Virus record (IMG/VR): IMGVR_UViG_3300030333_003999
Location: 1 to 44,113 of that record
Length of the DNA stretch: 44,113 nt
Source: a virus
Reading direction: 5' to 3' (one strand)
The position numbers were made by a program, and so were the translations under genes. Positions 17,115 through 38,198 of the stretch are shown here, one piece after another (within the stretch, counting starts at the first letter, position 1; each line of letters begins with the position of its first letter). The notes under the pieces were generated by a model. It saw nothing but the letters and a program-made list of their open reading frames with translations. It was not told the DNA's origin and searched no databases.

Positions 17115-17411
17115 ATGGCAAACACAACATCATCTCCAAGTGGAGAAAGAGTAGTAAGCATCAGTTCAACTGATGGATGGACAACTAAAACAATCACAGC
17201 TAATACTATTGGCGAATTAAGGATTGCTTTAGATATACCTAATGAAGCAACTGTGAATGTTCAGGATACATTGTATACTGATAACACTTCACCTATGCCT
17301 CAAAACGAAACTAATGAAGATGGTTCAACTAGACCATTATGCATTGGTTGGGTAGCTAACAACAAAACTGGAGGTTCAGTAGAACATAAAGTTTATGTTT
17401 ATGTTGTTTAG
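17115..17411 (+). CDS. Ubiquitin-like (ThiS/MoaD-type beta-grasp) protein with C-terminal extension
   Basis: A 98-residue protein. After a short polar N terminus the order is strand (RVVSIS), strand (TKTITAN), helix (TIGELRIALDIP, the equivalent of the ThiS/MoaD 'TlxeLLxeLgi' helix), strand (ATVNVQDT), a polar loop with NEDG, then LCIGWVANNKTGG. 'dGd.v...xxKtGG' is how ThiS/MoaD and phage/bacterial Ubl proteins end. Here Gly86-Gly87 are followed by 11 residues (SVEHKVYVYVV) that would have to be removed before adenylation, and the JAMM protease two genes on is the natural candidate. It has AAGGAG upstream. The fold is inferred by pattern; the adjacent E2-, JAMM- and E1-like genes strongly support it. 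Confidence 0.65.
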   Translation: MANTTSSPSGERVVSISSTDGWTTKTITANTIGELRIALDIPNEATVNVQDTLYTDNTSPMPQNETNEDGSTRPLCIGWVANNKTGGSVEHKVYVYVV

Positions 17412-17424
17412 TTAAGTAAATAAT

Positions 17425-17505
17425 TAAGGGGGACAATAACTGGTCCTGTAAGTCCTATAAGAATTTGAGATTTCTATAGGCAAAGGAATATGTGAGTCCC
17501 CCTTA
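17425..17505 (+). ncRNA. Predicted structured RNA element 4 between Ubl and E2-like genes
   Basis: TAAGGGGGAC (17425-17434) pairs perfectly over 10 bp with GTCCCCCTTA (17496-17505). Inside, TCCT (17444-17447) pairs with AGGA (17484-17487), and CCTATA/TATAGG plus GAA/TTC form an inner hairpin (17454-17480) with one bulge. It lies 13 bases after the Ubl stop and 17 bases before the E2-like start. No T-run follows, so it is not an intrinsic terminator. It could set the ratio of Ubl to downstream enzyme expression by protecting or processing the mRNA. Confidence 0.5.
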
Positions 17506-17522
17506 TAACGCACGGAGATAAG

Positions 17523-19160
17523 ATGAATTTAGAATTAAATTTTGAAAAACAAATAAAAAGAAATCCTAATTTAGAATTATTCTCTAAAAATACTGTGGAA
17601 TTATATACAGATGGTACTGCTACACTACATTATTTGGGAGACCATTATAATAATAGAGTAGATTTGCTACCAATTAGTTCTTTGTTTGATTATGTAGATG
17701 CTGAGATATTTGCATATGAAACAGGAATGAAAGATGTAACAGATTTCAAGTTATATATAGAGAATGTTCATAATGATTATAAGTTTTTATTTAATGAAGA
17801 CGAAAAATATGTTTTAGGAGTTACAAATAAGTATAATTATAGACCAGGTACATACGATACTATTAAAGCTCTTATAAATAAAGTCCAAAGGTTTCATCAG
17901 AGACCTGCTGGTATGATGTCTTTATTTAATAGAATAAGTGATAATCAATGGGCATATAATAATATTAAAGATAAAATGAGCATGTTAGAAGCCAAAAGAA
18001 TAAAAGCTAAAAATGCTAGTGGTAGTTTAGTTGATAATATTGGAGAATTAATACAAAATCAGTCAGATAGATATGATAAAATAATTGAATCAACTAAGCA
18101 AGCTAACCAAATGTCTGATTATTTTGATATGTTGCATTTTATTCCTAATGATGTTGAAGACCATGTTGCAAACAATAACTATACTTATATTAAATTGTAT
18201 ACAGTAGTTAAATGCTTTTCTAAAGATATGACTATTATTAATAATCGTAATGAAGAAATGGCTAGAATGACAGTTCCAGATACATATTTAATGTTTGTAA
18301 GACCATTGTGGAGAGCATTAACAACAGACAGAAGGAATTTTGAAGATTATAAAGGAAGTTGTCCAGGTGGTTACCATCCATACTTAAATTCTGTTCCTTA
18401 TTATTCATATGACCCGCCAAGTAGTTCTTTAAGTACACTCGGTTGGGGCACGCTATGTTTATCATCATATCAAGATGATGTGTTATCAAGTATGTCTAAA
18501 CATGATTATAGTTCAGCAATCATGGCACTTATGAATTGGAATAATATTTATAATAAAGACCACACTAATCCTTATGCTTCTATATCTACTGTAATGTCAT
18601 CAGGAAATTTCCCTGTTGTTAAAGAAGATGAAGCAGATAGAATTAGAGTTGGTACTGGATTTAGTATGGGTACTTGTTTCAGACAAAAGTATAGGAGTCA
18701 TCAAATTACTGACTATGATATTAGACAACAAGACCGTAATTATGAAACAAATGGTCCAAATCTATATCCATACGCACATTATATTCTTGATGAATGCAAT
18801 GAAAAGAAATGTCCACTAAGACATATATGTCTTGATTATCAAAATCTTAAATTACTTGAAGAAAGTGATTGGCCTGAAATATTAGAAGATATAATAGGCA
18901 ATCTATATTCTTGTAATGATGAAGATGGAGATGGCAATGCTTATAATTATCAATATCATTATAAAGAGCTAATCGATATTGGTCAAGATGATTATGTCTT
19001 TAAATATGTGTATAGACTAGTTGAAGGTAAGTTAGACGGAGAAGGGTTAGACTATTGGGGTAACAAGCCAGTAGAAAAGACAATTGAAGAAATAGAACTA
19101 GAACAGATGCAAGCTCAAATAGAAGAGTGGGCATCAATGCAAAGGAGTCAAAATGGCTAA
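17523..19160 (+). CDS. Large protein with E2 (ubiquitin-conjugating)-like active-site region
   Basis: A 545-residue protein. Residues 1-215 are an unrecognised domain with a helical part (145-200). Residues about 220-345 look like a diverged UBC/E2 fold: a strand (YIKLYTVVKCF), then GGYHPYLN (His285-Pro286), then GWGTLCLSS (Gly309, Cys312), then a helix DYSSAIMALMNWNNIYN. Canonical E2s have HPN...GxICLxxL...WxP...ixxILxxixxLL, with Cys as thioester site, so Cys312 is the candidate. The His-Cys spacing (27 residues) is longer than in eukaryotic E2s (about 10). A cysteine cluster (CNEKKCPLRHIC, 425-436) may bind metal. The C-terminal tail is an acidic helix. It overlaps the JAMM gene by 8 bases. 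The E2 call depends on motif and context. Confidence 0.5.
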   Translation: MNLELNFEKQIKRNPNLELFSKNTVELYTDGTATLHYLGDHYNNRVDLLPISSLFDYVDAEIFAYETGMKDVTDFKLYIENVHNDYKFLFNEDEKYVLGVTNKYNYRPGTYDTIKALINKVQRFHQRPAGMMSLFNRISDNQWAYNNIKDKMSMLEAKRIKAKNASGSLVDNIGELIQNQSDRYDKIIESTKQANQMSDYFDMLHFIPNDVEDHVANNNYTYIKLYTVVKCFSKDMTIINNRNEEMARMTVPDTYLMFVRPLWRALTTDRRNFEDYKGSCPGGYHPYLNSVPYYSYDPPSSSLSTLGWGTLCLSSYQDDVLSSMSKHDYSSAIMALMNWNNIYNKDHTNPYASISTVMSSGNFPVVKEDEADRIRVGTGFSMGTCFRQKYRSHQITDYDIRQQDRNYETNGPNLYPYAHYILDECNEKKCPLRHICLDYQNLKLLEESDWPEILEDIIGNLYSCNDEDGDGNAYNYQYHYKELIDIGQDDYVFKYVYRLVEGKLDGEGLDYWGNKPVEKTIEEIELEQMQAQIEEWASMQRSQNG

Positions 19161-20115
19161 TAAAGAAAAACCAAAGTTCATTATCCAAGAAAAGTCTTGG
19201 AATACAATGCAACAATATGCTCAAATAGCATATGAAAAGGATAAAAATGAAATATCTGGATTAATTCCATATAAATTAGTAGAACATCCAGTTTCAAAAG
19301 ATATGGTATATGAGTTATTTGACCCAGTTATTCTTAAACAAGAAAATACTGGAACAACAACAGAGCTAGATGGAGAAGCTATTAGAGATTATCAGATTAA
19401 AGCTGGTATGAAATATGGAACAGATATCAAGTTTTGTTGGTGGCATTCACATCATACAATGGGAGCGTTTTGGAGTGGTACAGACCAAAATGAAATAAAT
19501 GCATGGGAAAATGACTCTTGGTCATTAGCTCTTGTAGTTAATTTATTTCAAGAATACAAGTTAAATGTATCTGTTTGGCAACCAATTCAATATTCTGAAG
19601 ATGTGAGTCTAGAAATCATCAGGCCTGTCCCTAAAATAACCAAAAAGCAACTAAAAGAATACGAAGAACTCTGCTCTAACAAAGTATCTGTTGTTTCAAC
19701 ATACAGTGGTTGGAAAAAGGGAAATCAAGTAGCTTTATGGCAACAAAAGACTGTAGACGAATATGGAATTAATAATCTTCCTCCATTAAAATGGAAAAGC
19801 GGTGAAAGCCTAGAACTATATCAAGAACTCATTGAATATGTTGATTCAGCTATTGATGAATTAATAGAAAAGTTCTGTGAAGGTTCTGCAGATTATAAAG
19901 AATATTCGACAACAATTGATTCTTTAAACAAAGCCTTAAAGGAAAGAAACGCTAAAATATCAATAGTGAAACTTCCTCAAGGAAAAGTTTTAGAGAAGGC
20001 CATGACAATGCAAGCTTGGGAGCATGTTAAATATGACAATGATAATATAGAAAAAGTGTATGACGAAGCTAGAGTCGTACAGTTTAACTATGGATTTGGA
20101 GGGCACTTTGCATGA
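19153..20115 (+). CDS. JAMM/MPN (JAB) isopeptidase-like protein
   Basis: A 320-residue protein. The N-terminal 150 residues are a JAB/MPN+ domain with every catalytic residue: Glu33 (KNEISGL), His98 and His100 (WWHSHHTMG), Ser108 and Asp111 (FWSGTDQNEI), in the exact H-x-H-x7-S-x2-D spacing. Such zinc proteases cleave Ubl precursors or remove Ubls from targets. Residues about 150-320 are an extra helical domain (e.g. KKQLKEYEELCSNK, SIDELIEKF-like helices) with a C-terminal QFNYGFGGHFA. It overlaps both neighbours (8 and 4 bases), so it is co-translated with the E2-like and E1-like proteins. The likely job is to mature the Ubl by cutting after Gly87 and/or to deconjugate it. Confidence 0.85.
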   Translation: MANKEKPKFIIQEKSWNTMQQYAQIAYEKDKNEISGLIPYKLVEHPVSKDMVYELFDPVILKQENTGTTTELDGEAIRDYQIKAGMKYGTDIKFCWWHSHHTMGAFWSGTDQNEINAWENDSWSLALVVNLFQEYKLNVSVWQPIQYSEDVSLEIIRPVPKITKKQLKEYEELCSNKVSVVSTYSGWKKGNQVALWQQKTVDEYGINNLPPLKWKSGESLELYQELIEYVDSAIDELIEKFCEGSADYKEYSTTIDSLNKALKERNAKISIVKLPQGKVLEKAMTMQAWEHVKYDNDNIEKVYDEARVVQFNYGFGGHFA

Positions 20116-20780
20116 TAAACACACGTAGTTCAGGATTAGTAAATAATCTACATGAGTATACATTTCACATATTAGGTTGCGGAGCTATTGGTAGCTCTGC
20201 AGCCACTCAGCTACTAAGATGTGGAGCTAAAAAGTTTGTATTATATGATATGGACGAAGTAGCGACAGAAAACATCGGAGTATCACAATATATGGACGAA
20301 CATATAGGTATGAAAAAGACAGAAGCTCTTGAAGAACACCTAATGTCTATAAATTGTAGAGATGTGGAAATACTACAAGTACCTGAATATTTTAGTATGT
20401 TCAGGTATCAAGATAATAATGATATTGTAATACTTGGTTTTGATAGTATGAAGTCAAGAAAAGATGCTGTTGAAGAAATATGTTCAAACAAGCATACTAA
20501 ACCTTATCTATTGATAGATGGTAGAATGGGCGGAGAACATTATCAACAATATGTTTTTAAAGATGTTACATTATCTAATTATCTTAAAACTTGGTATTCT
20601 GACGAAGATGGCGACCCAGAGCCATGCAATGTCAAAGCATCAAGTTATTGTTCTAATATGGCTGGTAGTATGATTGTAAATGCTATTAGGAAAGTAGTTA
20701 CTAATGGACCCTACGAGGATTCATTGACTTTTAACTTCCCTAATATGACATTGCAAAAAAATACTTGCTTTCCAGCCTGA
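20112..20780 (+). CDS. ThiF/E1-like Ubl-activating adenylyltransferase
   Basis: A 222-residue protein with a Rossmann ATP-binding fold: ILGCGAIGSS (Gly22, Gly24, Gly27), then VLYDMDEVATENIGVSQY (Asp46, Asp48, Asn54, Gln59) and HIGMKKTEAL (Lys68/69). These are the ThiF/MoeB/E1 residues (D-x-D-x-V-x..N-x..Q..K) that bind ATP and the Ubl tail. GFDSMKSRKDAVEEIC (Asp111, Arg116) fits the later 'D..xxR' motif. Cys172 (PEPCNV) or Cys180 (SYCSNMAGSM) could be the thioester cysteine. Its size is that of a minimal ThiF-type enzyme without the extra E1 domains. It is the last gene of the module and overlaps the JAMM gene by 4 bases; a long structured region follows. Confidence 0.85.
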   Translation: MINTRSSGLVNNLHEYTFHILGCGAIGSSAATQLLRCGAKKFVLYDMDEVATENIGVSQYMDEHIGMKKTEALEEHLMSINCRDVEILQVPEYFSMFRYQDNNDIVILGFDSMKSRKDAVEEICSNKHTKPYLLIDGRMGGEHYQQYVFKDVTLSNYLKTWYSDEDGDPEPCNVKASSYCSNMAGSMIVNAIRKVVTNGPYEDSLTFNFPNMTLQKNTCFPA

Positions 20781-20793
20781 CATATTGTAAATT

Positions 20794-21003
20794 GATAACT
20801 CTGCAGAACAAATAATTGGGCAAGTAGTACTAGCATTCGTCTTTTCTGTCCCATTTCTTTCAGTAGACAATGCTAGGCAGACGCCTCCAACATGAAAGTG
20901 ACCTAGAGCTGGAAAATTCTGGGCGTATGACCCTTTTGCGCTGGCGTTAGATAGCTGTGATGGACTATCGTTCCCCCTTAGGGTATTTGTTCTGTAGATT
21001 ATC
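20794..21003 (+). ncRNA. Predicted structured RNA element 5 after the E1-like gene
   Basis: A 250-base gap whose ends pair: CTGCAGAACAAATA (20801-20814) with TATTTGTTCTGTAG (20984-20997), 14 bp with one G-U, flanked by GATAA/TTATC. Inside, CTAGCATT (20830-20837) pairs with AATGCTAG (20869-20876), ACGCC pairs with GGCGT, and GATAG pairs with CTATC. The interior is G/C-richer than the surroundings. No credible ORF exists on either strand. It contains AGTAGACAAT, a word also found in some group I introns, but I cannot assemble an intron core and the E1 reading frame does not resume after it. Likely a structured 3' element or small RNA. Confidence 0.5.
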
Positions 21004-21009
21004 GTTATC
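20999..21009 (-). repeat. Right copy of the inverted repeat flanking the ubiquitin-like module
   Basis: TTATCGTTATC here is the exact reverse complement of GATAACGATAA in the repeat at 17079-17095. It sits at the end of the structured element following the E1-like gene, about 20 bases before the next gene. Confidence 0.45.
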
Positions 21010-21030
21010 ATAAATAAGGAAACCAATAAG

Positions 21031-21705
21031 ATGGAACTCAAGAAAGTAAAGAGAAAAGCTATTTCTGTCAACCCAGCAACTCTTTTATTATACGGAGCAC
21101 CTAAAGTAGGTAAAACTACTATGTTATCTCAATTAGATGATTGTTTAATTATAGATACTGAAAAAGGTAGTCGGATGATAGAGGGTTATATTCAAGAGGT
21201 TAATGACAGAGACGAGTTAATCGAAACTCTATTAGCTATTAAAAAAAGTAAAGATGTTAAGTATAAATATATAGCCATAGATACTATAGATAAAGTAGCT
21301 GAATGGGCTGAAAAAAGAGTTTGTCAAGAAGAAAGTGTTTCTTCTATAGCAGATTTAGCTTTCGGCAAAGGTTACGGATTAGTAAGAGAGAAAGTAGCTA
21401 AAACTATATCGCACTTCAAAGAAGTAGCTGAGCATCTAATCATTATTGGACATAGAAAAGTAGCATATGCAGTAACAGAAGGCAATCCAATAGTTATACC
21501 TGAGTCACTTGATTTGACAGGTAAGCTAAAGAATGTTATTATGGCTAGCTGTGATGCTATAGGGTATGTCTATCGTAATGAAAAAGAAGAGCTTATGGTA
21601 TCATTTAAAGCAAATGATTCTATAGAAGCTGGTAGTAGGTGTCCTCACTTAAAAGGACAAGAAGTTGAATTCAAATGGAACAATATATACAAGGAGAAAA
21701 AGTAA
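21031..21705 (+). CDS. RecA-like ATPase, Sak4-type recombination protein candidate
   Basis: A 224-residue P-loop protein. Walker A is LLYGAPKVGKTT (Gly22-Thr30); a Walker B-like stretch is YKYIAIDTIDKV. The layout (short N terminus, then P-loop, 'LIIDTEKGSRMIEG', 'YIAIDTID', 'LIIIGHRK') fits the AAA_24/Sak4 group of phage RecA-like ATPases that promote single-strand annealing or strand exchange. It is followed, with a TAATG overlap, by a partner that could be a single-stranded DNA-binding protein, the usual Sak4 neighbour. Start preceded by AAGGA. Role in recombination-dependent replication inferred from family and context. Confidence 0.75.
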   Translation: MELKKVKRKAISVNPATLLLYGAPKVGKTTMLSQLDDCLIIDTEKGSRMIEGYIQEVNDRDELIETLLAIKKSKDVKYKYIAIDTIDKVAEWAEKRVCQEESVSSIADLAFGKGYGLVREKVAKTISHFKEVAEHLIIIGHRKVAYAVTEGNPIVIPESLDLTGKLKNVIMASCDAIGYVYRNEKEELMVSFKANDSIEAGSRCPHLKGQEVEFKWNNIYKEKK

Positions 21706-22295
21706 TGGCTATATTTAGACCAACAGAAAAAGCAACTCCAGCCAATTTTCTTGGTATAATTGAAGTAGGTATTATCAATTATGCTGATAAAAGCAAGGAG
21801 TTTGAATGGGCAGATGTGTTTATTGAAGTAGAGCTATCTGTCAAGAATAGTGAGTATAGTAATAAAACTTCACTATTGGGAAGTTTAGATAAAGATGCTA
21901 GTGGCAATATTACTGGTGGTTCAGTACTGAAAAGAATGTACAAATTCTTTGATGCAATTGGTTGCTCAGCAGGATTATCTGTTCAAGGTAAATGGGAAGA
22001 CGCTAATGGCGTAACTATTGAAAATATTGAAAAATATTTAAATGATAATTTTACTACTAAAGGTGAGGAGTTTGTAGCGTATGCATACAAAAAGAAACCT
22101 AAGCCAGGTAGTGACAAGGTTTATACTGAAGTATATCCTAGATTATATCCTAACTCCCAGGAAGGCAAAGAGCAATGTCGTAAAGACGTTGCTTGGTTGA
22201 AGCAAAAAGGCATTATTAAAGAGGCAGATGCAACAGATATGCCTATGAAAAATAATGATACCCCCTTAGCTGATAGCGCATTAAATAATCTATGA
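21705..22295 (+). CDS. Sak4 partner, single-stranded DNA-binding candidate
   Basis: A 196-residue protein from the ATG at 21705, chosen because AAGGAG lies upstream and the ATG shares a base with the preceding stop (TAATG); an upstream ATG at 21675 lacks such a site. The first 70 residues are beta-rich (FLGIIEVGIINYADKSKEFE, WADVFIEVELSV), followed by a helical stretch (LKRMYKFFDAIGCSAGLSV). The C terminus is disordered and polar. Phage proteins of this type beside Sak4-like ATPases (DUF669-like) are thought to coat single-stranded DNA. The assignment is by gene context and rough fold pattern. Confidence 0.5.
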   Translation: MAIFRPTEKATPANFLGIIEVGIINYADKSKEFEWADVFIEVELSVKNSEYSNKTSLLGSLDKDASGNITGGSVLKRMYKFFDAIGCSAGLSVQGKWEDANGVTIENIEKYLNDNFTTKGEEFVAYAYKKKPKPGSDKVYTEVYPRLYPNSQEGKEQCRKDVAWLKQKGIIKEADATDMPMKNNDTPLADSALNNL

Positions 22296-24058
22296 TATAC
22301 GTAGAGATAGCAGCTAAATCACCTAGAAATAGGGGTCTATTGGTTTTAAAGTCTGAGCTTCATAAGTATATTCCGACTAATGGAGACGCTTTATACCGTT
22401 CTGTCTATCTTTACGATGAGGACGCAAAGCAATTTGCCGACTCTAAGGGCACTTTAAGAGGCTATCATGGAGAGCGTGGAATTGACAATGTTTTAATTGA
22501 TATTGACAAAAAAGATAATACCGATGATTACACTTTAGGTAAATTACGAGGAACTCTAACGCATCTAAATGTTTTAGAAGTCCTTGATGAAAGCATTCAA
22601 TGCTACTTTAGTGGAACAGGATATCATATAGTCATAACTAATAAAGTATTCAACTTCCAGCCTTCTGATAGCCTGCCCTATCAGGTTAAAATGACAATGT
22701 CTAATTTATTCGATGGTATAGATACAAGTATCTATATGCGAAGTGGTATATATAGAGTAGCTCATACAAAAAATCAAAAAACAGGGTTATATAAAATACC
22801 CATTACATTAAAGGAAGCACTCTCTTGTACCTCTGAAGAAATACACGAATTAGCTAAAGAACCTAGACTAGAATATCCCTATGAGGTTTTAGATGGAGAT
22901 AATGAGCTAGAAGGATATATTAGCTTAGAAGCTCCTAGAGTACCTGAATTTAGGAATATTTCTGAACCTACGAAGGTAGTACCTTGTGTACAAACAATGC
23001 TTAGAAATGGCCCAATAGAGGGCTCTAGGCACAATACTGCACTTAGAATAGCAAGTCACTTTAAAAGACACGGCATTCCCAGTGAGTATGCAAAAGTGGG
23101 ATTACTACATTGGAATAACAATACTATGAATGAGCAAGCCATGATAGAAAAAGTAGAATCTGTCTACAATGGAAACTATAATTACGGCTGTCAAGATGTA
23201 TTAATGAAAAAGTATTGTCAGACAAAATGTATCCACTTTAAAAATAAAGATTATCATATACATGTAAAGAATTCAGATGAGTTGCAAGCAGACTTTGAAG
23301 AAAGATTAACAACAAACTTTGAAGGTAGGGCTATACCACTATCTGATATGTTTGGATTGCATCAATATGATACTCAGATTTACCCGGGAGAGTTAGTTAC
23401 TATATTTGGACCAACAGGTTCTAATAAAACTACACTAGCTCAAAATCTAGCCTTAGGAGTTGATTTTAAAAATGATAAGATTAACCCTAGATGGCAAATA
23501 CCAACACTATTCTTATCCCTTGAATTATCTGCTTGGTATATGCATAGAAGGCACTTGCAAATAGTGTCAGGATTATCAAAAGAAGAAGTAAATGCTAATT
23601 TTAAAGAAGTCTATAAAAAATATGGCGACCAATTAAGGCATTTACAAATTCAAACAATATCTCCTACTATGTCATCAATACAAGATAAAATCAAGGAATT
23701 AAATCCAGCTGTAGTAATAGTAGATTATATAGATTTAGTAGAAACTCCTAAAAATGTTAAAGGAGAATATGAGCAAATAAAATTCATATCTCATAGCTTA
23801 TCAAATTTAGCAGTAAATCTAGATGTTGTAATCATACAAATATCACAGGTTAGTCGAGAATATAGTAGAAATGAAGTATTAGACTTATATGCAGGAAAAG
23901 GCTCAGGAGCTATAGAAAACGCATCACGTAAAGTGATAGGTTTGAATGGCCAAGCAAACAGTAATGTAAAGCATATACATATGTATAAAAATACTGATGG
24001 AGAACTATTTGACGTGGAAGTGGAATGGCGTGAAAACTTTAGACTAAGGAGAGTTTAA
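22292..24058 (+). CDS. Primase-helicase: AEP-like primase domain fused to a RecA/DnaB-like helicase
   Basis: A 588-residue fusion. The N-terminal half has NVLIDIDKK (Asp70, Asp72) and CYFSGTGYHIVI (Ser107-His112), which match the catalytic DxD and the 'sGxGxHi' motif of archaeo-eukaryotic primases. A four-Cys stretch near residues 300-318 (YGCQDVLMKKYCQTKCIHF) could be a metal-binding linker. The C-terminal half is a RecA-fold ATPase: Walker A IFGPTGSNKTT (Gly373-Lys379), Walker B VVIVDYIDLV (Asp478) and VVIIQISQVSREYSR, as in DnaB/gp4 hexameric helicases. It would unwind and prime at the fork. The start overlaps the previous stop (ATGA). The helicase call is firm, the primase call good. Confidence 0.8.
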   Translation: MIYVEIAAKSPRNRGLLVLKSELHKYIPTNGDALYRSVYLYDEDAKQFADSKGTLRGYHGERGIDNVLIDIDKKDNTDDYTLGKLRGTLTHLNVLEVLDESIQCYFSGTGYHIVITNKVFNFQPSDSLPYQVKMTMSNLFDGIDTSIYMRSGIYRVAHTKNQKTGLYKIPITLKEALSCTSEEIHELAKEPRLEYPYEVLDGDNELEGYISLEAPRVPEFRNISEPTKVVPCVQTMLRNGPIEGSRHNTALRIASHFKRHGIPSEYAKVGLLHWNNNTMNEQAMIEKVESVYNGNYNYGCQDVLMKKYCQTKCIHFKNKDYHIHVKNSDELQADFEERLTTNFEGRAIPLSDMFGLHQYDTQIYPGELVTIFGPTGSNKTTLAQNLALGVDFKNDKINPRWQIPTLFLSLELSAWYMHRRHLQIVSGLSKEEVNANFKEVYKKYGDQLRHLQIQTISPTMSSIQDKIKELNPAVVIVDYIDLVETPKNVKGEYEQIKFISHSLSNLAVNLDVVIIQISQVSREYSRNEVLDLYAGKGSGAIENASRKVIGLNGQANSNVKHIHMYKNTDGELFDVEVEWRENFRLRRV

Positions 24059-27634: not shown

Positions 27635-28918
27635 TTATCTAAGTTTTCCTACTATTCTTAAAGCGCTTTCCAATAATGATTTCGTCGCCTTTTTATTTAC
27701 TGTTTTAGTAAATGAATATGTTTGAAATTCCTTTCTTGCTGCTGGATAAATTCTTTTATTAAATTCTTGCTTTCTAGGCTTTGTATGAGCTCCTTTCTTT
27801 TGAGGCATATTATAAGTTGTATATCCAGTATTAACAACAGGCTTAGCTCCTAATATACGCCGCTCTAAAAACTCCATAGGTTTATTCCAAGCATAGTTAT
27901 GTTGGTCAATAACCTCTAAAGCAACCTTTCTATATCCATTGCCATGAGGAATAAAATGCATTCTTTGATAATGTCTTCCAGCAATATAGTCCATTCTTTT
28001 ATTAAGCCTTTGGTCTAAAGGTGCAAAGCCCAATCCATAAGTTCTAACTTTTCTTCCATTTTCAACATACCATTCTGCCCTTGGAAGCAATTCTAGCTTC
28101 ATTCCGCCAATAATTTTGCCTGAAGGATGCACAGGAATACCATCAACATTCAACGCTGGCTTTACTAATTCTTTTTTCCATACATAATGGCCACCCTCAG
28201 CGGCCTTTTTAGCCGAATGAATCTTTCCGCTTTCCATCAGTTTAGATACATAATTTACTCTAGGGTCAGCTGCAGCATACTCTTTAAACTTACTCATTTT
28301 AACTTTTGAAAAGAATGTAGCTGGAACTTGCTGTCCTACAAATGGCGCTAATCCTTTTTCAACCTTAGCCATTAAAGGAGTAACTTTAGTCATGCCTGGT
28401 TTTGCAAAATCCATCTCAAAAGCAGTTGGAGGCTTTAATCCTAATTGCTTATATTTATTATGAACTGTAACTTTTCTATCTTCAAGGTCTCGTATTCTAT
28501 TTTTCAATTCATTCTTTAGAGTAGCTACTTCCTTTTTATTAAGAGTTGGATTCTTTAATTCATTTTTAATCTCTCTTATAGATTCTTCAGCGGCTAAAAT
28601 CTCTAAATCACCACCTTTCATAATTTTCCCCATAACTCTCACTGGCTTAGTAAGGACATTGCCCTTCTGTCCAGCATTGGCTTGCAAGAAATTACTCCAA
28701 GCCTGTGCAAATTTCCCAGTATTTCTATATCTAGGGTCACCACCCAATCCTCCAAATCCTTGAGTGTCAGTAAAATTAGCAAACGCATGTTTACCCACTT
28801 GCCTGGCCATAGCAGCTCCACCAGTCAATACAACTCCTGTTTGTACATAATCTAATAACTTGCTATTAGTATTAGACTCATCTGGGGCCCAAGCATCACT
28901 TAAAGGGTCTCTAGCCAC
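27635..28918 (-). CDS. Internal virion protein candidate, 427 residues
   Basis: A 427-residue basic protein, last gene of the right-hand leftward cluster. It has a short N-terminal hydrophobic stretch (TGVVLTGGAAMARQVG, about 27-42), a charged helical region (about 100-150, LKNELKNRIRDLEDRKVTVH) and a basic C terminus. The start overlaps the 3' end of the 3095-residue gene by 8 bases, implying coordinated production. In podoviruses the proteins encoded with the giant internal protein are ejected with it. No domain is recognised. Confidence 0.5.
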   Translation of the reverse strand: MARDPLSDAWAPDESNTNSKLLDYVQTGVVLTGGAAMARQVGKHAFANFTDTQGFGGLGGDPRYRNTGKFAQAWSNFLQANAGQKGNVLTKPVRVMGKIMKGGDLEILAAEESIREIKNELKNPTLNKKEVATLKNELKNRIRDLEDRKVTVHNKYKQLGLKPPTAFEMDFAKPGMTKVTPLMAKVEKGLAPFVGQQVPATFFSKVKMSKFKEYAAADPRVNYVSKLMESGKIHSAKKAAEGGHYVWKKELVKPALNVDGIPVHPSGKIIGGMKLELLPRAEWYVENGRKVRTYGLGFAPLDQRLNKRMDYIAGRHYQRMHFIPHGNGYRKVALEVIDQHNYAWNKPMEFLERRILGAKPVVNTGYTTYNMPQKKGAHTKPRKQEFNKRIYPAARKEFQTYSFTKTVNKKATKSLLESALRIVGKLR

Positions 28919-31900
28919 TTCTCATCTCCTTTGACATTTTTTGCAACTGGAACATAGGTAATCCAGTCCATTTATCTACTACAGACATAGGGTTCTCAAT
29001 TAAATTGTTTGGTCCATGAAAGTCTTTTATCAAACGACCAAATGGAAACATAGTATATATATAATAGTCAGACACTCTAGACCAATCATCTTCTAATACA
29101 GCTCTCATAGTTGCCATTGGTAATCTAGCAATAGGGGGAGTTATCATTTGTAAAGGAGCTACAGCTCTAGGCCATTGACCAAAAAATGCTCTATTCCTTG
29201 ATTTTTCATCACCAAAAATCCACTCACTAGTATCCTGCATCCAGTTCCACGGCGCTGGCATTGCAGTTTCAAACATTGAATAAGTAAACATATTACCAAG
29301 CGCAAATACGAATAAATCCATTTGCATCATTCGAACAGCACGTTCCATATCTGCGCCTGTATGTCCATTTAATCTTGCCTGTTTAAGTGCATCTTTTCTA
29401 AATCGTACTGCATTCCAACCCCATAATTGAAATCTAGTCATAACTTTTCCTAGGGCAGTTCTAGCAAACATAGGTCTATAAGGAGCTGAGTATAAAAATT
29501 GCGTAGCTTTTACACCCTTCTTAGCCAACTCAACAAGTACTGGATGATTAAAATCTTTTATAGCACCGCCAAATCGTTTATACCAAAACAACCAATGAGC
29601 CATAAATGCATCTCTTCTTAAGGCACGTTCTGGGACAGACATAAATTTAGCCGCCCATTTACCTATAGGAGATGTAATTCCTGATTTTTTTGCCATATCT
29701 AATATAGACTCACTAGAAGTTTCAGGGTCTCTACGCAACTTACTTGCTACATCTCTAATAAATTGTTCGTTCTTAGCAGACTGGAATTCTGTCTTAAGGC
29801 CATATTCATGCTGTAAGTATTCAGGATTAACACCATGACCAGTAACGTATTCATCAACTTTTTGTTTACTATTCCACTCAGGATTAATCTTAACAAGTTC
29901 ATTGATATCACGAGCTTGTTTCCAAGTTTGGAATCCAGTAGACTGAATAGTATGTGTCTGTCCACCAAATATATTATTAACTACTGTCCTAGGATGTGCT
30001 AAAAGCGAAGCTAACTCAAATTTAGCCTCTAAATTAGTCCAATAACGCACATCATTTACATCTAAGCCCCTTAAGTTTTCAGGTAAATCTTTTCTTAAAA
30101 GCCCTAATTTATCCCCTATACTATTAATTCTATCTTTTACTCTATTATCAGCCCACCAAGCAAATGGCGTTTTCTTTACTTTCATAACTGGATTATCTAA
30201 AACATCTTGAGGAATAATATCTGGATTCCCTCCAGCTCCTTGTAAGTAAAGTTTAAAGAAAGTTTGCCAAGCATTTGTTTGCTCTGGCCCAAACTTTTTA
30301 TGCATAGCATTACCAAAATCCGTTATTAAATTTCTTCCAAATATTTGACCCATCTGCCTCATATATGTATTTAAAACAGCTCTGGTGTAAGATGCCGCAG
30401 TAGTAGCATCTGTAGACCACCCTGGGAGATGTGAATCTCTAGACATCATTGAATTAGTACGTTTATTAGGGTCAAAGAAACTGATTCTATTTTCTTTATC
30501 TCTAACCTTTTCACTAATACGCTTTTGGGCTAAATCAAACTCCTGCCATTCATCTATATCATTAAACTTCCAATCACCTGTCAATGCATGATGTCTATAT
30601 GTAATTTTCTCTAAATGTTTCTGTATTTCTGGCTCTGTTAATTCAGTTGTTCTTATATATTTAACATAATTATCTAATGCAGCTAAAGCTTCTTTTTTAC
30701 TAAAATGTAAATGTGGCCAATAGTTTGCAAAATCAATCTTACCTGTTTGATTTGGTTCTTGCATCATTAACTGCTTTTTCATTGCAGGGTCTTTAGTCAT
30801 CTCTATCATCATTGAACGAGCAACTAAATGAAGACCATCTATCCCAAAATCAAGTGGAAGTTCTTTTCCTTCTTGCCAACGCTTTTTCATAGCCCTGATA
30901 AATTTAACGTGGTCTATAATAGGTGACTTCTCAGCTTTGTCGTAATATGATACTATATAAGGCTCTAATGACCTTGGTATATTGCTAATAGCATTTCCCT
31001 CAGAATCAAGTGGGACATCTCCTGTAGTAATTCTATGCATCTTTTTAAAGAAATCAGTATATACTTTATTTACTTTTTCAATAACTTGCTCACCTGTTAA
31101 TTTAACTCTAGTTGGCTTGCCATCAATTATATCTGTAATAACATATTCTTTATTTTTAATTGAATTTTCATAGTCTGTGCTTTTCATTACTTCATCATGC
31201 TTCTTAATATACTCAGCTGCATCTGCTCTATTAACAGAGGACTTGACTTCTCTACGCTCATTAATTTTTCTAGCAAGAGGTAATTCTCTTTTTCGTATAG
31301 CTATTTCATGAAGAGCTTCATAATCTTCTAAGTCCTGTATAAATAACAACTCTTCAGACAATCTATTAGTGTATCGCTCTCCCAAAGCTTGAGCAGACTC
31401 TTGAGTTCTACCAATTGCGGCTGTCATCTCATCCATAAACTGAGTTGGTCTTTTTACTTTACCTGAAGTAAATCCTTCGTTTGTTAAAAAGATACCTCTT
31501 TCTTGCATAAGAATTATTTCATCTTTCATCAACTCTCTATTTATAGTCTCTGGGAACTGTATATAATGCCTTTCAGATAATTTTGTAAACTCACCACGTT
31601 TTAATCTTTGCCACAATGTTCCTTGCCTTACTTCATTTAACCAATTCCTCATAAACAACCAATCCTGCTTATTCATAAGATTAAAATCTTTATTTCTTAG
31701 ATATCTAACAAGCAATGGGAAATCTTGAGCAACTTTACTATTTTCCATTTTTAAATGAGCAATTATTTCTTGTATATACCCTCTAGTTTCAGCATCTCCC
31801 CTACCAGCTTCATGAGCGGCTTTCCCTTTCTTTAACCCTTCTAGTCCAGTTGTTTCTGTAAGGAATTCTTCTAAGTCACGCAAGGCATCTTTAGGCGCTC

Positions 31901-34900
31901 CTTTTTCTTTATTCTCTGGTTTTAATGGCTCGTTTACTAATTTATCGGCTTGTTCATTAACAATAGATTCTTTTCTTGAGACAGAAACCTCATTAAACAT
32001 TTCACTATATCTGCCAAGGAAATCTCTTATAGAAGAATCTGCTACAGCGTTAGAAGCAAATCCAAGTCTTGACATTGAAGTTCTTGCAGCATCTGACCTT
32101 AATTGGCTCATTATTTGATAAGCTATTTTATCCATGTTGCCACCAATTTTCTTTTCAAAAGCATCTATTGCCGCTAAATCCCCTCTATTCAAAGAACCCA
32201 AAAGCAATGTATCAAATAATTTTTGCTGTTTTTTAGTTTTATATCTTTGCGTTTTAAGGTTTTGTATTGTTTTATCTACTTCTGCTTGGTCTAAATAAGC
32301 AGTTTTTAATAAGCTTTTCTTGGGATTAACAAAAGATAGTTGGTCTTTTAATTCGGAATTATTGACAAGGTCCCTCATTACTTCTTCGATAAAAGATTCT
32401 TGTTCACCCGACCTATCTCTAGGAGTAAAATTATTACGTGCTCTGGCCATTAAATAGCTACGCATCTTCAAATGATTAACCGACCTAGATATATCTTCAA
32501 CAGAAGCCTTTTCCTTAGAATCCATAGAATCAATAATCTCTTTAGCTGCTTTCATAGTAACTAAATCAGTAATATCTTTTACTATATAGTCGCCCGCTTT
32601 ATTCCTAATATCAATTAAAGCATTTCTTCTAGCTATATATTTAAACTTAGGATTATTAAAATCAGCCAAATGCTCTTTAATATAACTATAAGGAGTCTCT
32701 GCTATAACTTCTCTAAATAACTTTTCGCTTTTCAATACTTTGTTTAGACCTGTATCATTGTGCAATTCATAATTCATAGTTGCACGTATATACTTATGAG
32801 CTGGAACCTTAAAAGTACTTCTTCCCAATGGTTTTAATAGCCCTTCATATTCTTTTACAGCTTCATTCCAATTCTTGTATAAAGCTTCTACTTTAGACTG
32901 TTCCATTCTTCCTAAAGGATTGTCAGAATAATTTATATCACTTAACATTCGAGCAATCTTAGGAGTCATAGTATTAACTTGCTTATCTGACAATAAATGA
33001 AGTCTAGAAGTTAAATACATCCGCTCGTCCATAGTCCATTTGCGTCCTTCTGCGTAATTACGTCCATAATACGCTGAATTAGCCCCTTCCATCATTCCAA
33101 ATATTCCACCTTCTTTAAACTTATATAATGGCAATTCTTTATCTAAATTACCTTTAAATTTCTTACCATTCTTTTTAATAGAATCAAATTTAAAATGAGC
33201 ATCATAAAATGTCTTCCACCAATAGTCATAGCTTTTCATTCCAGCGTAGTCCATAGGGTCTGAAGATAAACCAACCATAGCTCTACCTAGTTTACGTATA
33301 TATTTCTTTTCACTTTTAGAAGTTTTTGGACTTACTTTAAACTCCCACTTTTCTTTATCAAATCTTTTCTTCTTTTTATTCCAAACTCTATTCACAACTT
33401 CAAAAGAATCGCTACCTTTTTCTACCATAGCATTGTAAGCAGATGCCATAACTTGCTTTGGTTGCACTGCAGCACCACCTAATAAAGCTCTACCTTCAGT
33501 TGCCGCTTCGGACATATTCATTCTCATATTAGGAGCGAATGCAGATTCTGGGCTTTCTACTAATTTTTTTTGGCTTTCTGTATATTCTTTGGTAAGCAGC
33601 TGTTCCATTTCTTTATTCTTATTGTCTTCAATAATAGTCTTCTTACCTTTTTTAACGTAGAACTCATCCTTATTAGCTTCATAGACATCTTTCCATTCTT
33701 TTCGAAATCCACCTTTTCCTCCCATATAAAAATAGGCAGAATCACCATCAAGGTCAGCTCCACCTAGAGCTCTCATAGCTCTTGAATGCATCAATATACC
33801 ATGCCCTTCTCTTCCTGTAAACCCTGAGAACTTTAATATTTGCCCTCCAGATACAGAATCCATAGGAACTCTCATAACTACAGACCTAAATATTTCTTCT
33901 ACTTGCTTTTTAATCTTTGGTTGATTATCAAAACTACCTCTCACTGCACCTTCTATAGCTTCAAATTTATAAGTTATAGAACCATCTTTTTGCTTAGTTT
34001 CTACTACACGATGTGGTATTTTAGTTTCGTCAGTTTGAAATTTAGCATATTCTCTCATAGAGCGACGCCAATTAAAATCTGGTTTATCTTTTCTTCTAAT
34101 ATGAGTAACTCTACCTCTGGTCTCTCTTTCTGCTGTTGGAGAATATCTTTCCTCAGTTGTCCACTCGTGCCACTCTTTATTGATTTCCGCGCTAGTTTTA
34201 AAAACTTTACCTTCTTTACCTGCATACATATTCCATAATTTGCCTAATTTGATTCTACCTAACCCAGGAATATCTGTTTCAATCCACATATCCTCATAAG
34301 CCTTATCTAAGAAAAATAAAGAATCATCCTTATTTAGCTTTTTTAATCGTTTATTAACTCCATCTGAGTCAACTTGCAAATCGTGGTCATATGGCCTAAT
34401 TCTAGCGCTTCCAGAGTTATTCATTTTTGGTTGTGTCGCTTGCTTTACAATCCAATTATTTAAAACTTGCATGCGATAATCTTTTACAAAATTATGACCA
34501 TATAAAGAAACAACGTTTTCAGACTTGTTGTTCATATCAGCATATTTACTGCCTTCTTTAATAATTCTATGTTGTACCGAATGGAAATCCTCCATCATAG
34601 TTAATTGGTCTTCATAGGTCATCGTATCTATTTCACCTGCCTCTAAAGCAGCATTTAAGTCTTCTTTTTGTGACTTAAACATCATATCATATGCTTTCCT
34701 TGCAAACAATTGATTTCCAGGCTTTTTTAATGCATTAATTAATGGCTCAATTCCAATCTTTTCTAAATCTAATTTATCTAACTCTCTTCGAAGTTCCATA
34801 TCACTAGTTTTAGCAGGAAGTTTTAAATATTTTTCTAAAGCTTTATTAGCCTGTGCATCTCCTCTAAATCTAGGTTCTATTACATTTTCATAAATACTAT

Positions 34901-37900
34901 CGACAGTTTTTTGCATTTCTGGTCCACCTTTATGGGACAGATGCGAAATTAGATTACCTAATAACTGTTTCTTTAAAGATTGTGGCTTTAGCATATCAGT
35001 ACTTTGATTTACACTATAATTATACTTAATATGACTAGGGTCTAAGTCATTATACAAAGTATCAAACTTCCTTAGTCCCATTTGCTTTGCCGAAGATTCT
35101 TGAATAATATAATGAATCCCCTGTTGTTTCATATATTCTGACATTTCTTTACCCGCATCATGCATCATATACTTTCCTAATAAAGCACCATTTTTACTAT
35201 TAGGAGATATAATAAAAGACTTGTTTTGAGTTGCATCAGATGCTGTTCCAGCGTCTTTGTTGTTTGCAGTAAGAACGTCTCTACGAGCTAATATAGCTCC
35301 ATCAACATGTTCGGGATTTTGTATACTATCTAGAGAAATATCACGATGGTCAAGTTTTGCATCTATATCTTTTAAATCTTTCACAATCATATATCTAAAA
35401 TTGCCTTGCTTAGACATATCATTTATTTTATCTGTATAAAAATCTTTTTGTCCTGAAAATGAATCAGTCATCCATATTTGACTTCTTTTATTAAAAGCAG
35501 TAGCATTATTAATAAATCCTTTGCCTATAATAGTTTTTATATTAGCTGGGGTAATATCCATTCCATTCATAGAGAGACCCCATAAAACATTAGACTTAAA
35601 GGCTCTATCAAAGTATTTATTAGCTTGTGCAGCAGTCATAGTATCTTTGCCTTTTGTAAACCTATCTCGAAATTCTGACTTTAACTTAAATAAATTAGCT
35701 TTATTAAAATGTCGTTTTATCATAGCATCTGATATTAAATCCTCTTTGGGGTGGTATTTCATCATAATAAGCTTGTCATCCGTACCCTTACCGCCAAAAT
35801 AATAGTATTTATCGCCTTTTCTTGTTGATAGATTGTGCAACATCTTAGAAATAACCTGATTGTATTCTTTTTCGCCCTTTAATTTTTTAAATCTAGATAA
35901 GGTTAAATCTCTCATACCTTCTTTAGTTTCAACAGTAATATGGTCTAATACAGAAAATGCCCTTCCATCCTTACCTGTTAATACTTGCCATATTTGGTCT
36001 ACTATTTTATATGGCTCTCTATTACTTTTACGATTACCTGCTTTGGTAAGTGGGGTTTTTCTATCTAAGAAACCAACCTTACCAGTTTCAACATCCAAAG
36101 AAACAAAATCCAAATCCTGCTCAAAATTTCTTCTAGAAATCCATTGTCTCATTTCTCCTTGAGCTCTATCTAATTCTTTCCCTTTTAAATGAAATCCAAA
36201 TTCTTTTTGTACATCTGCTAGAAATCTCTCAGATTGATTGCCATCTCCAAATCTATCTAAATACTCAGGTATCATCTCCTCTAGTTTATTCATATCTTTA
36301 GACATTCTTTCTGCCTTCACTATTGGAACATCTTCACCTTCATATAAACTTTTCATATACTTGGTAACAAACCTAAACGCTCTAGGGCCTACATCTTTAT
36401 TATTAGTATGAGGGCTACCAGTATCTGTATCACCTGTATTTAAGGTATCCTTATCATCTTTTTCTTGTTGCCTAGCATTTTTAGCTTCTACAGCTAATTT
36501 TTTAAAATGCTGTCCAAAATGACGTTGCAATGCATTTTTAGTATTTTGATTAATATAGGGCTCTCCAACAATTCCCATAATTCTAGATGGCTTTGGAGGC
36601 TCTGTAATTGGAGTAAATGCATTAACTTGTCCTCGCTTCCATTCAAACCAGCTTTTTTGAGAAGGGTCGTAAAGATATATAGGCTTCTTAGTATTTACTG
36701 CCATTTGATGAGCCCATTCAACACCAGTCCTTGACGGTTTTAACTGCCTATTGTATTTACCGTCTACTCTACCTACTAGATATAGTGTTTCAGCGTTTTT
36801 AACTACAAAATAATTCTTTCTTATAGTGTCTAGGGTACGAGGATTTATATTGCCTAATTTCCTCTTTAAAGATAAATTAGCTTGAGTCATCGCCTCGTTA
36901 GCTTCTTCAAGCTGCTTAGTTGTTAATTCTTTAGCAAACCCAGGCTGGTCTTTTTTATTTAAAGCACGACGCTGTTGCTTAGTTACCATGTGAATATTAG
37001 CAACTCCTCGTCTCTGACCTAATCGAGCGACGAAAGCTTCGACTCCCTTACCACCTCCAGTAACCATATAAGCAGTTTTTTTGCCCTTTAATCTATACTT
37101 AACCTCACCAGATTTAGTTTTAACTCTGGTAAATTGACCAAAGCCCTCAGGCACATCAGAGATATCTATTCCACCCAGTTCGGTAAATAGCCAATTATCG
37201 GCTAAATTATCTAAAGGGTTGCCATACATTTTCTCTGCCATTTCTTTGACCACTGGCTGTACTTCTGGAGGTAATTTCTTGAATTCTGGGTGCATTTCTG
37301 GGTCCATACTAATTTGCAAATCAGTATATTTTTCTAAAGCATCTTTCTCAAACTTTTCAGATAACCATTTACCTGCCTTATGTTGTGTCCAAGGACGCTC
37401 TTTTCCCCCAAACCAAGCTCCCATTACATATTCATAAACTTGTTCAGGGGTTGTAGCACCTCTCATAGTAGCTGGTAATCCCATAAATAAAGAACCTGCA
37501 AGGCTTCTAGCTATTTTATTGCCAGACTCACTTCCTGTGTTAACAAAATTACCAATAGCTCTAAATGCAGCTCCTGCTTTAGCACCACCAATAAAAGAAG
37601 CCATCATCTCATCGACACCACCTTGCCAAGAAGATATGGCAGAAGCAGCTCCTAAATGGAAAGCTCCCTCAGCTATATGCTTAGCTCTTTCTCCCATTAA
37701 AAAGGCAGACGCTGAACTAACCGCTCCTTGCTGAGCTTTTCTGCCTTGCTCTAAAAGGGGTCTAGCAATCTTTTTAGCTCCTCTAGTTGCTGCATTAGCA
37801 AACATCATAGGTACAGATTTATCGTTTAATTTTCTAGCTATTTTAGCAGCATTTAGCAAGCCTGTGGATTTTGTAATTTTTGCAGCAGCAGTAAGTGGAG

Positions 37901-38198
37901 AAGCTATTATTCCTGGCGCGAAACCTCCTAAGTGTCCAAGATTTCGGAATATAGCTTCGTATTCATTATCGGCAGGGTCGAACAAATGAAGTGTCGTAAA
38001 GCCCTCTACAAGACCTTTTCCAAGCTCCATAATAGCATCAGTTATCTCAAAGTCACCTTCATAAAAAGGAACTCCGTGATAATCAGCATGTTGTTTTATT
38101 AAATTTTTTAAATTTTCGGGAACATGAGGGTTTTGTTCATAGTTTTTAATAACCCCACGCAGTGTTTTCTCATCCCAAACTGGTTGGAATTGCTCCAT
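28911..38198 (-). CDS. Giant virion-type protein with candidate double-psi beta-barrel RNA polymerase core
   Basis: A 3095-residue protein. The N terminus (about 80-260) has several Ala/Gly hydrophobic helices. Residues 966-1009 read VDGAILARRDVL (Asp966), QNKSFI (Lys993), LLGKYMM (Lys1009), resembling the beta-type barrel. Residues about 1440-1490 read VMRVPMDSVSG, GREGHGILMHSRAMRALG and then GADLDGDSAYFYMGG, with Asp1482, 1484 and 1486 matching the metal-binding DxDGD of QDE-1/YonO-type polymerases and NADFDGD of cellular beta-prime. TEGRALLGGAAVQPKQVMAS follows. The C-terminal 350 residues resemble endings of large polyvalent phage proteins. Its neighbours are virion genes, so it is probably packaged and ejected to transcribe early genes, as in crAss-like phages. 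The polymerase call is motif-based. Confidence 0.6.
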   Translation of the reverse strand: MEQFQPVWDEKTLRGVIKNYEQNPHVPENLKNLIKQHADYHGVPFYEGDFEITDAIMELGKGLVEGFTTLHLFDPADNEYEAIFRNLGHLGGFAPGIIASPLTAAAKITKSTGLLNAAKIARKLNDKSVPMMFANAATRGAKKIARPLLEQGRKAQQGAVSSASAFLMGERAKHIAEGAFHLGAASAISSWQGGVDEMMASFIGGAKAGAAFRAIGNFVNTGSESGNKIARSLAGSLFMGLPATMRGATTPEQVYEYVMGAWFGGKERPWTQHKAGKWLSEKFEKDALEKYTDLQISMDPEMHPEFKKLPPEVQPVVKEMAEKMYGNPLDNLADNWLFTELGGIDISDVPEGFGQFTRVKTKSGEVKYRLKGKKTAYMVTGGGKGVEAFVARLGQRRGVANIHMVTKQQRRALNKKDQPGFAKELTTKQLEEANEAMTQANLSLKRKLGNINPRTLDTIRKNYFVVKNAETLYLVGRVDGKYNRQLKPSRTGVEWAHQMAVNTKKPIYLYDPSQKSWFEWKRGQVNAFTPITEPPKPSRIMGIVGEPYINQNTKNALQRHFGQHFKKLAVEAKNARQQEKDDKDTLNTGDTDTGSPHTNNKDVGPRAFRFVTKYMKSLYEGEDVPIVKAERMSKDMNKLEEMIPEYLDRFGDGNQSERFLADVQKEFGFHLKGKELDRAQGEMRQWISRRNFEQDLDFVSLDVETGKVGFLDRKTPLTKAGNRKSNREPYKIVDQIWQVLTGKDGRAFSVLDHITVETKEGMRDLTLSRFKKLKGEKEYNQVISKMLHNLSTRKGDKYYYFGGKGTDDKLIMMKYHPKEDLISDAMIKRHFNKANLFKLKSEFRDRFTKGKDTMTAAQANKYFDRAFKSNVLWGLSMNGMDITPANIKTIIGKGFINNATAFNKRSQIWMTDSFSGQKDFYTDKINDMSKQGNFRYMIVKDLKDIDAKLDHRDISLDSIQNPEHVDGAILARRDVLTANNKDAGTASDATQNKSFIISPNSKNGALLGKYMMHDAGKEMSEYMKQQGIHYIIQESSAKQMGLRKFDTLYNDLDPSHIKYNYSVNQSTDMLKPQSLKKQLLGNLISHLSHKGGPEMQKTVDSIYENVIEPRFRGDAQANKALEKYLKLPAKTSDMELRRELDKLDLEKIGIEPLINALKKPGNQLFARKAYDMMFKSQKEDLNAALEAGEIDTMTYEDQLTMMEDFHSVQHRIIKEGSKYADMNNKSENVVSLYGHNFVKDYRMQVLNNWIVKQATQPKMNNSGSARIRPYDHDLQVDSDGVNKRLKKLNKDDSLFFLDKAYEDMWIETDIPGLGRIKLGKLWNMYAGKEGKVFKTSAEINKEWHEWTTEERYSPTAERETRGRVTHIRRKDKPDFNWRRSMREYAKFQTDETKIPHRVVETKQKDGSITYKFEAIEGAVRGSFDNQPKIKKQVEEIFRSVVMRVPMDSVSGGQILKFSGFTGREGHGILMHSRAMRALGGADLDGDSAYFYMGGKGGFRKEWKDVYEANKDEFYVKKGKKTIIEDNKNKEMEQLLTKEYTESQKKLVESPESAFAPNMRMNMSEAATEGRALLGGAAVQPKQVMASAYNAMVEKGSDSFEVVNRVWNKKKKRFDKEKWEFKVSPKTSKSEKKYIRKLGRAMVGLSSDPMDYAGMKSYDYWWKTFYDAHFKFDSIKKNGKKFKGNLDKELPLYKFKEGGIFGMMEGANSAYYGRNYAEGRKWTMDERMYLTSRLHLLSDKQVNTMTPKIARMLSDINYSDNPLGRMEQSKVEALYKNWNEAVKEYEGLLKPLGRSTFKVPAHKYIRATMNYELHNDTGLNKVLKSEKLFREVIAETPYSYIKEHLADFNNPKFKYIARRNALIDIRNKAGDYIVKDITDLVTMKAAKEIIDSMDSKEKASVEDISRSVNHLKMRSYLMARARNNFTPRDRSGEQESFIEEVMRDLVNNSELKDQLSFVNPKKSLLKTAYLDQAEVDKTIQNLKTQRYKTKKQQKLFDTLLLGSLNRGDLAAIDAFEKKIGGNMDKIAYQIMSQLRSDAARTSMSRLGFASNAVADSSIRDFLGRYSEMFNEVSVSRKESIVNEQADKLVNEPLKPENKEKGAPKDALRDLEEFLTETTGLEGLKKGKAAHEAGRGDAETRGYIQEIIAHLKMENSKVAQDFPLLVRYLRNKDFNLMNKQDWLFMRNWLNEVRQGTLWQRLKRGEFTKLSERHYIQFPETINRELMKDEIILMQERGIFLTNEGFTSGKVKRPTQFMDEMTAAIGRTQESAQALGERYTNRLSEELLFIQDLEDYEALHEIAIRKRELPLARKINERREVKSSVNRADAAEYIKKHDEVMKSTDYENSIKNKEYVITDIIDGKPTRVKLTGEQVIEKVNKVYTDFFKKMHRITTGDVPLDSEGNAISNIPRSLEPYIVSYYDKAEKSPIIDHVKFIRAMKKRWQEGKELPLDFGIDGLHLVARSMMIEMTKDPAMKKQLMMQEPNQTGKIDFANYWPHLHFSKKEALAALDNYVKYIRTTELTEPEIQKHLEKITYRHHALTGDWKFNDIDEWQEFDLAQKRISEKVRDKENRISFFDPNKRTNSMMSRDSHLPGWSTDATTAASYTRAVLNTYMRQMGQIFGRNLITDFGNAMHKKFGPEQTNAWQTFFKLYLQGAGGNPDIIPQDVLDNPVMKVKKTPFAWWADNRVKDRINSIGDKLGLLRKDLPENLRGLDVNDVRYWTNLEAKFELASLLAHPRTVVNNIFGGQTHTIQSTGFQTWKQARDINELVKINPEWNSKQKVDEYVTGHGVNPEYLQHEYGLKTEFQSAKNEQFIRDVASKLRRDPETSSESILDMAKKSGITSPIGKWAAKFMSVPERALRRDAFMAHWLFWYKRFGGAIKDFNHPVLVELAKKGVKATQFLYSAPYRPMFARTALGKVMTRFQLWGWNAVRFRKDALKQARLNGHTGADMERAVRMMQMDLFVFALGNMFTYSMFETAMPAPWNWMQDTSEWIFGDEKSRNRAFFGQWPRAVAPLQMITPPIARLPMATMRAVLEDDWSRVSDYYIYTMFPFGRLIKDFHGPNNLIENPMSVVDKWTGLPMFQLQKMSKEMRSG

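Follow-up and report, generated by a model that had tools for sequence, protein, structure and literature searches.

Ubiquitin-like (Ubl) systems of bacteria are familiar as operons of the host, which often serve in anti-phage defence. Operons that encode a Ubl, a JAB protease, an E1 and an E2, such as those of type 6d, have been catalogued by Iyer, Burroughs and Aravind (PMC1779556), and the E1-E2 of CBASS acts in defence (PMC10097602). In the literature we searched, which did not cover subscription journals, we found no report of a complete Ubl conjugation system carried by a phage. The four adjacent viral genes described here likely encode one, with both conjugating and deconjugating enzymes. 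This reading is based on sequence and predicted structure, with no activity measured.

The window, by which we mean the whole stretch of 44,113 nucleotides that was analysed, comes from a 55.6-kb virus record. The operon belongs to a phage, since the same contig encodes a phage terminase, a portal protein and a major capsid protein of SU10 type. The genes for the Ubl, E2, JAMM protease and E1 follow one another on one strand (17115-20780; Table 1), with an 8-base overlap between the E2 and JAMM open reading frames (19153-19160) and a 4-base overlap between those of JAMM and E1 (20112-20115). The original prediction had described these four frames and their overlaps correctly. Its reading of a complete operon in a phage also holds, as do all four gene assignments in the tests below, and none of the three conditions that it had named for its refutation was fulfilled. 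Further downstream, the window encodes an HNH/endonuclease VII-like protein and an exonuclease.

Table 1. Positions of the four-gene module, its motifs and its conserved neighbours in the window.
Feature	Position	Strand	Details
Ubiquitin-like modifier (Ubl)	17115..17411	+	98 aa, beta-grasp; predicted mature end at Gly87
Lys84-Thr85-Gly86-Gly87, conserved Ubl C-terminus	17364..17375	+	K, G and G invariant
SVEHKVYVYVV, 11-residue C-terminal tail of Ubl	17376..17408	+	Unconserved; removal by JAMM predicted
RNA hairpin in Ubl/E2 intergenic gap, TAAGGGGGAC...GTCCCCCTTA	17425..17505	+	Fold z -2.7
E2-like conjugating enzyme	17523..19160	+	545 aa; UBC-like core at residues ~200-345; N- and C-terminal regions helical
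His285-Pro286-Tyr287, HPN-like E2 motif	18375..18383	+	H in 23/25, P in 22/25 and Y in 24/25 homologues
Cys312 (LCLS), predicted E2 thioester cysteine	18456..18458	+	Present in 25/25 aligned homologues
JAMM/MPN+ (JAB) metallo-isopeptidase	19153..20115	+	320 aa; E33, H98, H100, S108 and D111 invariant
ThiF/E1-like Ubl-activating enzyme	20112..20780	+	222 aa; GCGAIG loop 22-27, Asp111, candidate catalytic Cys172
Sak4-like AAA recombinase, conserved neighbour	21031-21705	+	PHROG 124, E 1.6e-34; same order in relatives
206-aa protein of unknown family, conserved neighbour	21675-22295	+	Same order in relatives
DnaB-like helicase/primase, conserved neighbour	22292..24058	+	PHROG 19, E 5.2e-32; PHROG 16345, E 1.4e-24

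The window set shares with the bacterial operons of PMC1779556 the encoding of the same four activities together, but it forms a separate lineage, occurs in phages and lies in replication gene blocks. The type 6d operons differ further, as their E2s lack the classical histidine and they encode an extra helical protein. With the Bub, type II CBASS and Bil systems the window shares the E1-E2-JAB logic, and its E1 is related to the E1 domains of Cap2 and BubCD. Its E1 and E2, however, are two distinct proteins, and it is the phage rather than the host that carries the set. PADLOC defence models gave only E1-domain matches and weak JAB matches. Membership in type II CBASS was rejected because E1 and E2 are separate and the alignments to its models do not extend beyond the E1 half; no CD-NTase was found among the proteins scanned. 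PRTRC clusters, like the window, combine JAB and ThiF-like proteins. By the curated TIGR03735/TIGR03736 cut-offs the window does not belong to them, with PRTRC_ThiF at 26 bits against a cut-off of 144.75 and PRTRC_A at 13.1 against 101.8. Nor could the set be placed with the ThiS/MoaD sulfur carriers, as the window Ubl has no match to Pfam ThiS and no sulfur-transfer genes occur among the neighbours examined. The best solved matches of the window E1, JAB and E2 are UBA5, Rpn11 and UBE2N, which differ from the window proteins in being eukaryotic or archaeal, with low sequence identity.

The first protein, proposed earlier to be a beta-grasp Ubl, gave an AlphaFold model with the strand-strand-helix-strands order of that fold (pLDDT 69) and a disordered tail after residue 85. 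The close structural matches of the model are Ubl and beta-grasp proteins (elongin B, ISG15, Mth1743 and MoaD), and together these results support the proposal. In sequence, the protein matched no known Ubl family significantly, either in Pfam or in the PDB profile search, which returned chance matches only. K-x-GG is present in all 56 Ubl homologues, and conservation ends abruptly at K[T/V]GG: 25 of the 56 proteins terminate there, 27 carry 1-9 extra residues, and the remaining four are fused after the GG to extra stretches of 60-119 residues. KTGG had been taken for the tail of the window Ubl. Comparison confirms that the conserved Ubl ends there, but it is not the actual C-terminus of this protein, which runs on for 11 residues and would need trimming. 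Judged from these alignments, a GG end with variable tails is as expected for a modifier that undergoes processing.

A Ubl and a JAB protein also occur together in the tail gene clusters of phage lambda (TAPI and TAPK; PMC1779556), and the fusion of four Ubls to other domains could mean that the Ubl is likewise a cleavable module that matures structural proteins during virion assembly. We give this explanation the least credence of those considered, as the window genes are in a replication block rather than among tail genes, and the lambda clusters as described contain neither an E1 nor an E2. A conjugation cascade remains our preferred reading.

No Pfam E2 family matched the second protein, PDB profile searches with its sequence returned only chance matches, and Foldseek of its confident model (pLDDT 84) against the PDB found nothing significant. 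E2s ranked first only in a second look, made by VIA-align after the null Foldseek result, in which UBE2N and UBE2O were the top two of 211 aligned PDB chains (Z 4.7, rmsd 3.7-5.0 A). The distance between the motif histidine and cysteine is long (27 residues in the window) and variable in the window clade. Distant members have an H-to-C spacing of 9-10 (HPYYDTSNWC, HPYFDGTNWC and HPYMSSGGSWC), and divergent members also carry the E2 motifs HPHIQNGRPCLSS and HPYYDTSNWCMG; the motif and spacing of the distant members resemble those of classical E2s. When the window E2 was aligned by hhalign with a divergent type (L147-type, HPHIxxGxxC), HP and Cys were superposed (E 8e-5, probability 61%). The asparagine of HPN is not kept, being replaced by HPY, HPH or, in some members, FPY, so the lysine-transfer chemistry may differ.

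It could be argued that the second gene does not encode an E2 at all, and that the E1 works by itself, in the manner of MccB with its peptide, with the 545-residue protein as scaffold or substrate. MccB is indeed among the relatives of the E1, and neither the lack of a significant UBC match in Foldseek nor the incomplete conservation of His285 speaks for an E2. We still think this improbable, because Cys312 is invariant in an E2-like context, the divergent orthologues have the canonical H-to-C spacing, and the best structural matches are E2s. We retain the E2 assignment: a UBC fold is supported, with motif evidence carrying a modest structural score. The lack of a UBC fold with Cys312 in the active site would have counted against the original prediction; the model resembles UBC domains, at that modest score, and Cys312 is invariant. 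Separately, a C-x5-C-x5-C pattern is conserved in the C-terminal region of the protein (window 18792-18830, residues 424-436), with C436 in 26 of 26 and C430 in 23 of 26 sequences. It is perhaps metal-binding.

E33 and the HSHx7SxxD motif (98-111) of the third protein are invariant in 18 homologues. All 83 JAMM sequences compared retain the motif, among them the 25 from loci with a tail-free Ubl. This agrees with the earlier claim of a JAMM protease with every catalytic residue. The Pfam Prok-JAB match (E 0.0019) falls under the gathering score; the JAB family profile against the PDB has as its best match the 26S proteasome N11-like (Rpn11-like) protease (E 4.3e-6). Haemagglutinin and beta-lactamase rows in the same search align with the variable C-terminal part and were set aside as effects of composition. 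Because JAMM is intact even where the Ubl needs no trimming, we infer that deconjugation, and not maturation alone, is likely its conserved task.

The fourth protein matches Pfam PF00899 (ThiF; E 1.2e-19). A profile of 21 homologues found UBA5 as its best PDB match (E 1.9e-14), along with UBA6, MccB, ThiF, MoeB, Cap2 (E 6e-9) and the E1 domain of BubCD (E 8e-6); the last is the whole of our comparison with Bil and Bub, since the other three proteins were not included. G22, C23, G24, I26, G27, D111, C172 and C180 are invariant in the alignment, in which GCGAIG is conserved. The candidate catalytic cysteine is present in 90 of 90 E1s, with EQC replacing EPC in two, and by inference Cys172 is probably that residue. 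The match and the invariant motifs confirm the assignment as a ThiF/E1-like adenylyltransferase; activity itself has not been shown.

The E1 scores with ThiF models, the Ubl has a ThiS/MoaD-like size and a GG end, and sulfur-related Ubl-JAB-E1 gene clusters are on record (PMC1779556). One might therefore suppose that the E1 thiocarboxylates the Ubl, which would donate sulfur for base or cofactor modification, while JAMM only matures the precursor. This seems to us very unlikely. A dedicated E2-like gene with an invariant cysteine is always present, JAMM stays complete in loci whose Ubl has no residues beyond GG, and no sulfurtransferase, rhodanese, thiolation enzyme or other sulfur-metabolism gene was found among the neighbours examined.

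Co-occurrence of the four genes in related phages had been set as a test of the original prediction. All 51 related viral loci that extend more than 3.8 kb upstream of E1 have the genes in the order Ubl-E2-JAB-E1, and chance is thereby excluded. Loci were also sampled by a profile of the neighbouring helicase, an anchor whose choice is independent of the module. Among the 32 such loci with at least 5.5 kb upstream, profiles detected E1 in 32 and JAB in 30. The full four-gene order is present in all 32, including seven divergent loci that were settled by reading the open reading frames, as the Ubl or E2 profiles had missed the gene or hit the wrong place. In six divergent loci without E2 or Ubl profile matches, such reading revealed three proteins: an E2-like one that contains HPHIxxGxxC, a JAMM protein (its loop two residues longer where read) and a Ubl of 77-100 aa ending in SNKSG, SNKSGK or SNKSGN. 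The Ubl of L170 was also recognized by eye. When the upstream requirement is lowered to 2.2 kb, 56 of 58 helicase-anchored loci have the E1. The module is thus close to universal in the viral group of the window. A search with the E1 profile found 368 viral contigs encoding this E1 lineage and no relative in 85,000 prokaryote genomes, so the lineage looks virus-borne.

The four proteins do not evolve at the same rate. Mean identity to the window in 15 relatives is 80% for E1, 78% for the helicase, 60% for Ubl, 57% for JAB and 34% for E2. All four genes are under purifying selection (dN/dS <0.5 in all pairs tested), with E2 the least constrained, which suggests by inference that it faces a varying partner, for example a substrate. 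The same would be expected if the phage used the module for counter-defence or host takeover, placing the Ubl on host proteins (e.g. immune proteins or RNA polymerase) or competing with Ubl systems of the Bil, Bub and CBASS type. The chemistry would be the same and only the purpose different. Bacterial Ubl systems do act in phage defence (PMC10097602), and the window E1 is distantly related to the E1 domains of Cap2 and BubCD. However, all 32 helicase-anchored relatives of sufficient length have the module, and it keeps to one position amid replication genes, a fixed placement unlike that of typical accessory anti-defence genes. Merely to block a pathway, a phage could do without a JAMM, E1 and Ubl of its own, and no partner system was identified. 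We regard counter-defence as unlikely; the fixed site beside replication and recombination genes and the presence in every relative sampled fit better with a core role.

A matching block occurs in cultured crAss-like phages (gp76-gp79 of crAss001, and DAC15) and in Flavobacterium phage Fpv1, where the genes are labelled merely "thiamine biosynthesis protein", "metalloprotease" or hypothetical. The E1 (found by tblastn; hhalign E 3.6e-31) and the JAB (hhalign E 1.3e-12) are homologous to those of the window and stand in the same order, behind an E2-like protein with HSH...C and a KSG-type Ubl. All four genes are present in 63 of 63 crAss-group loci of sufficient length, most of which were fetched through JAB, with E1 called by the window-family profile. 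The crAss-like Ubl differs in having SG instead of GG and usually a C-terminal extension of 100-200 aa; the putative protein commonly ends in K-x-[KR]-SG before this extension, which is only 2-3 residues in L209 and L273, and 60 of 84 match the strict K..SG pattern. The motif of the putative E2 is HSH...C-x-G. By hhalign, crAss gp78 shows no detectable relation in sequence to the window E2 or to L147-type E2s, and comparison of the window and crAss Ubls gave only a weak match (probability 13%). Those two crAss assignments consequently rest on position and motif. In crAss001 the block sits between a primase gene and the genes for a uracil-DNA glycosylase, a resolvase and an exonuclease. In the prokaryote genome collection, the E1 profile of the crAss group hit only four contigs, of which three are short and come from MAGs.

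Several other features of these genomes are recorded here as observations. Of 38 intergenic gaps between Ubl and E2, 30 (window included) fold with z < -2. Sequence similar to the window hairpin in this gap occurs elsewhere in L009, L011, L018 and L025, and the hairpin is possibly a repeated processing or regulatory element. A structured insert of ~240 nt with a long closing stem (window 20785-21025, z -2.55) separates the E1 and AAA genes and has no Rfam match; partial copies are present in L003, L072, L100 and L106, and in other close relatives the gap is ~76 nt. In L026 (2686-3297) and L029 (2288-2875) the Ubl frame continues beyond GKTGG/NKTGG into a domain with weak similarity to phage DUF7303, and such a fusion may be a precursor of the Ubl that occurs naturally. 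The Ubl frames of L117 and L120 have a 60-residue extension after NDKTGG. The 206-aa protein lies between recombinase and helicase in most relatives and has no Pfam or PHROG match; the acidic C-terminus of its relatives suggests, by inference, a single-strand DNA binding protein. A 3095-residue protein (window 28911-38198) is without any PHROG match.

The order of steps in the proposed cascade is inferred from homology and motifs, with nothing shown biochemically. First, JAMM would expose the Gly-Gly end of the Ubl by trimming. The ThiF-like E1 would adenylate the terminal glycine and take the Ubl as a thioester, probably on Cys172, and the Ubl would then pass to Cys312 of the E2-like protein. 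The E2 would attach it to target proteins, its extra domains probably also selecting the substrate, and JAMM would remove it again. No E3 was identified. Because the block lies beside recombinase, helicase/primase and nuclease genes in sampled relatives, phage or host DNA replication and recombination proteins are the likeliest targets, an identification that is tentative and inferred only from the gene neighbours. It is possible, and we put it forward as no more than a working hypothesis, that a complete Ubl system is a core, replication-linked feature of two large phage assemblages, the metagenomic group and the gut crAss-like phages. It would descend from a common viral module ancestor and control viral DNA replication or recombination in the manner in which ubiquitin and SUMO control replication in eukaryotes.

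Since crAss001 and DAC15 can be grown in Bacteroides, the matter is already open to experiment, and the mass-spectrometry signature to look for is defined. The four-gene set is kept throughout the relatives of the window and in gut crAss-like phages, and some phages therefore probably use reversible protein tagging in their core biology. If this is true, a conserved and complete phage-owned system would imply that bacterial viruses carry out reversible protein tagging by themselves, and would account for the genes labelled "thiamine biosynthesis protein" and "metalloprotease" in abundant gut crAss-like phages.
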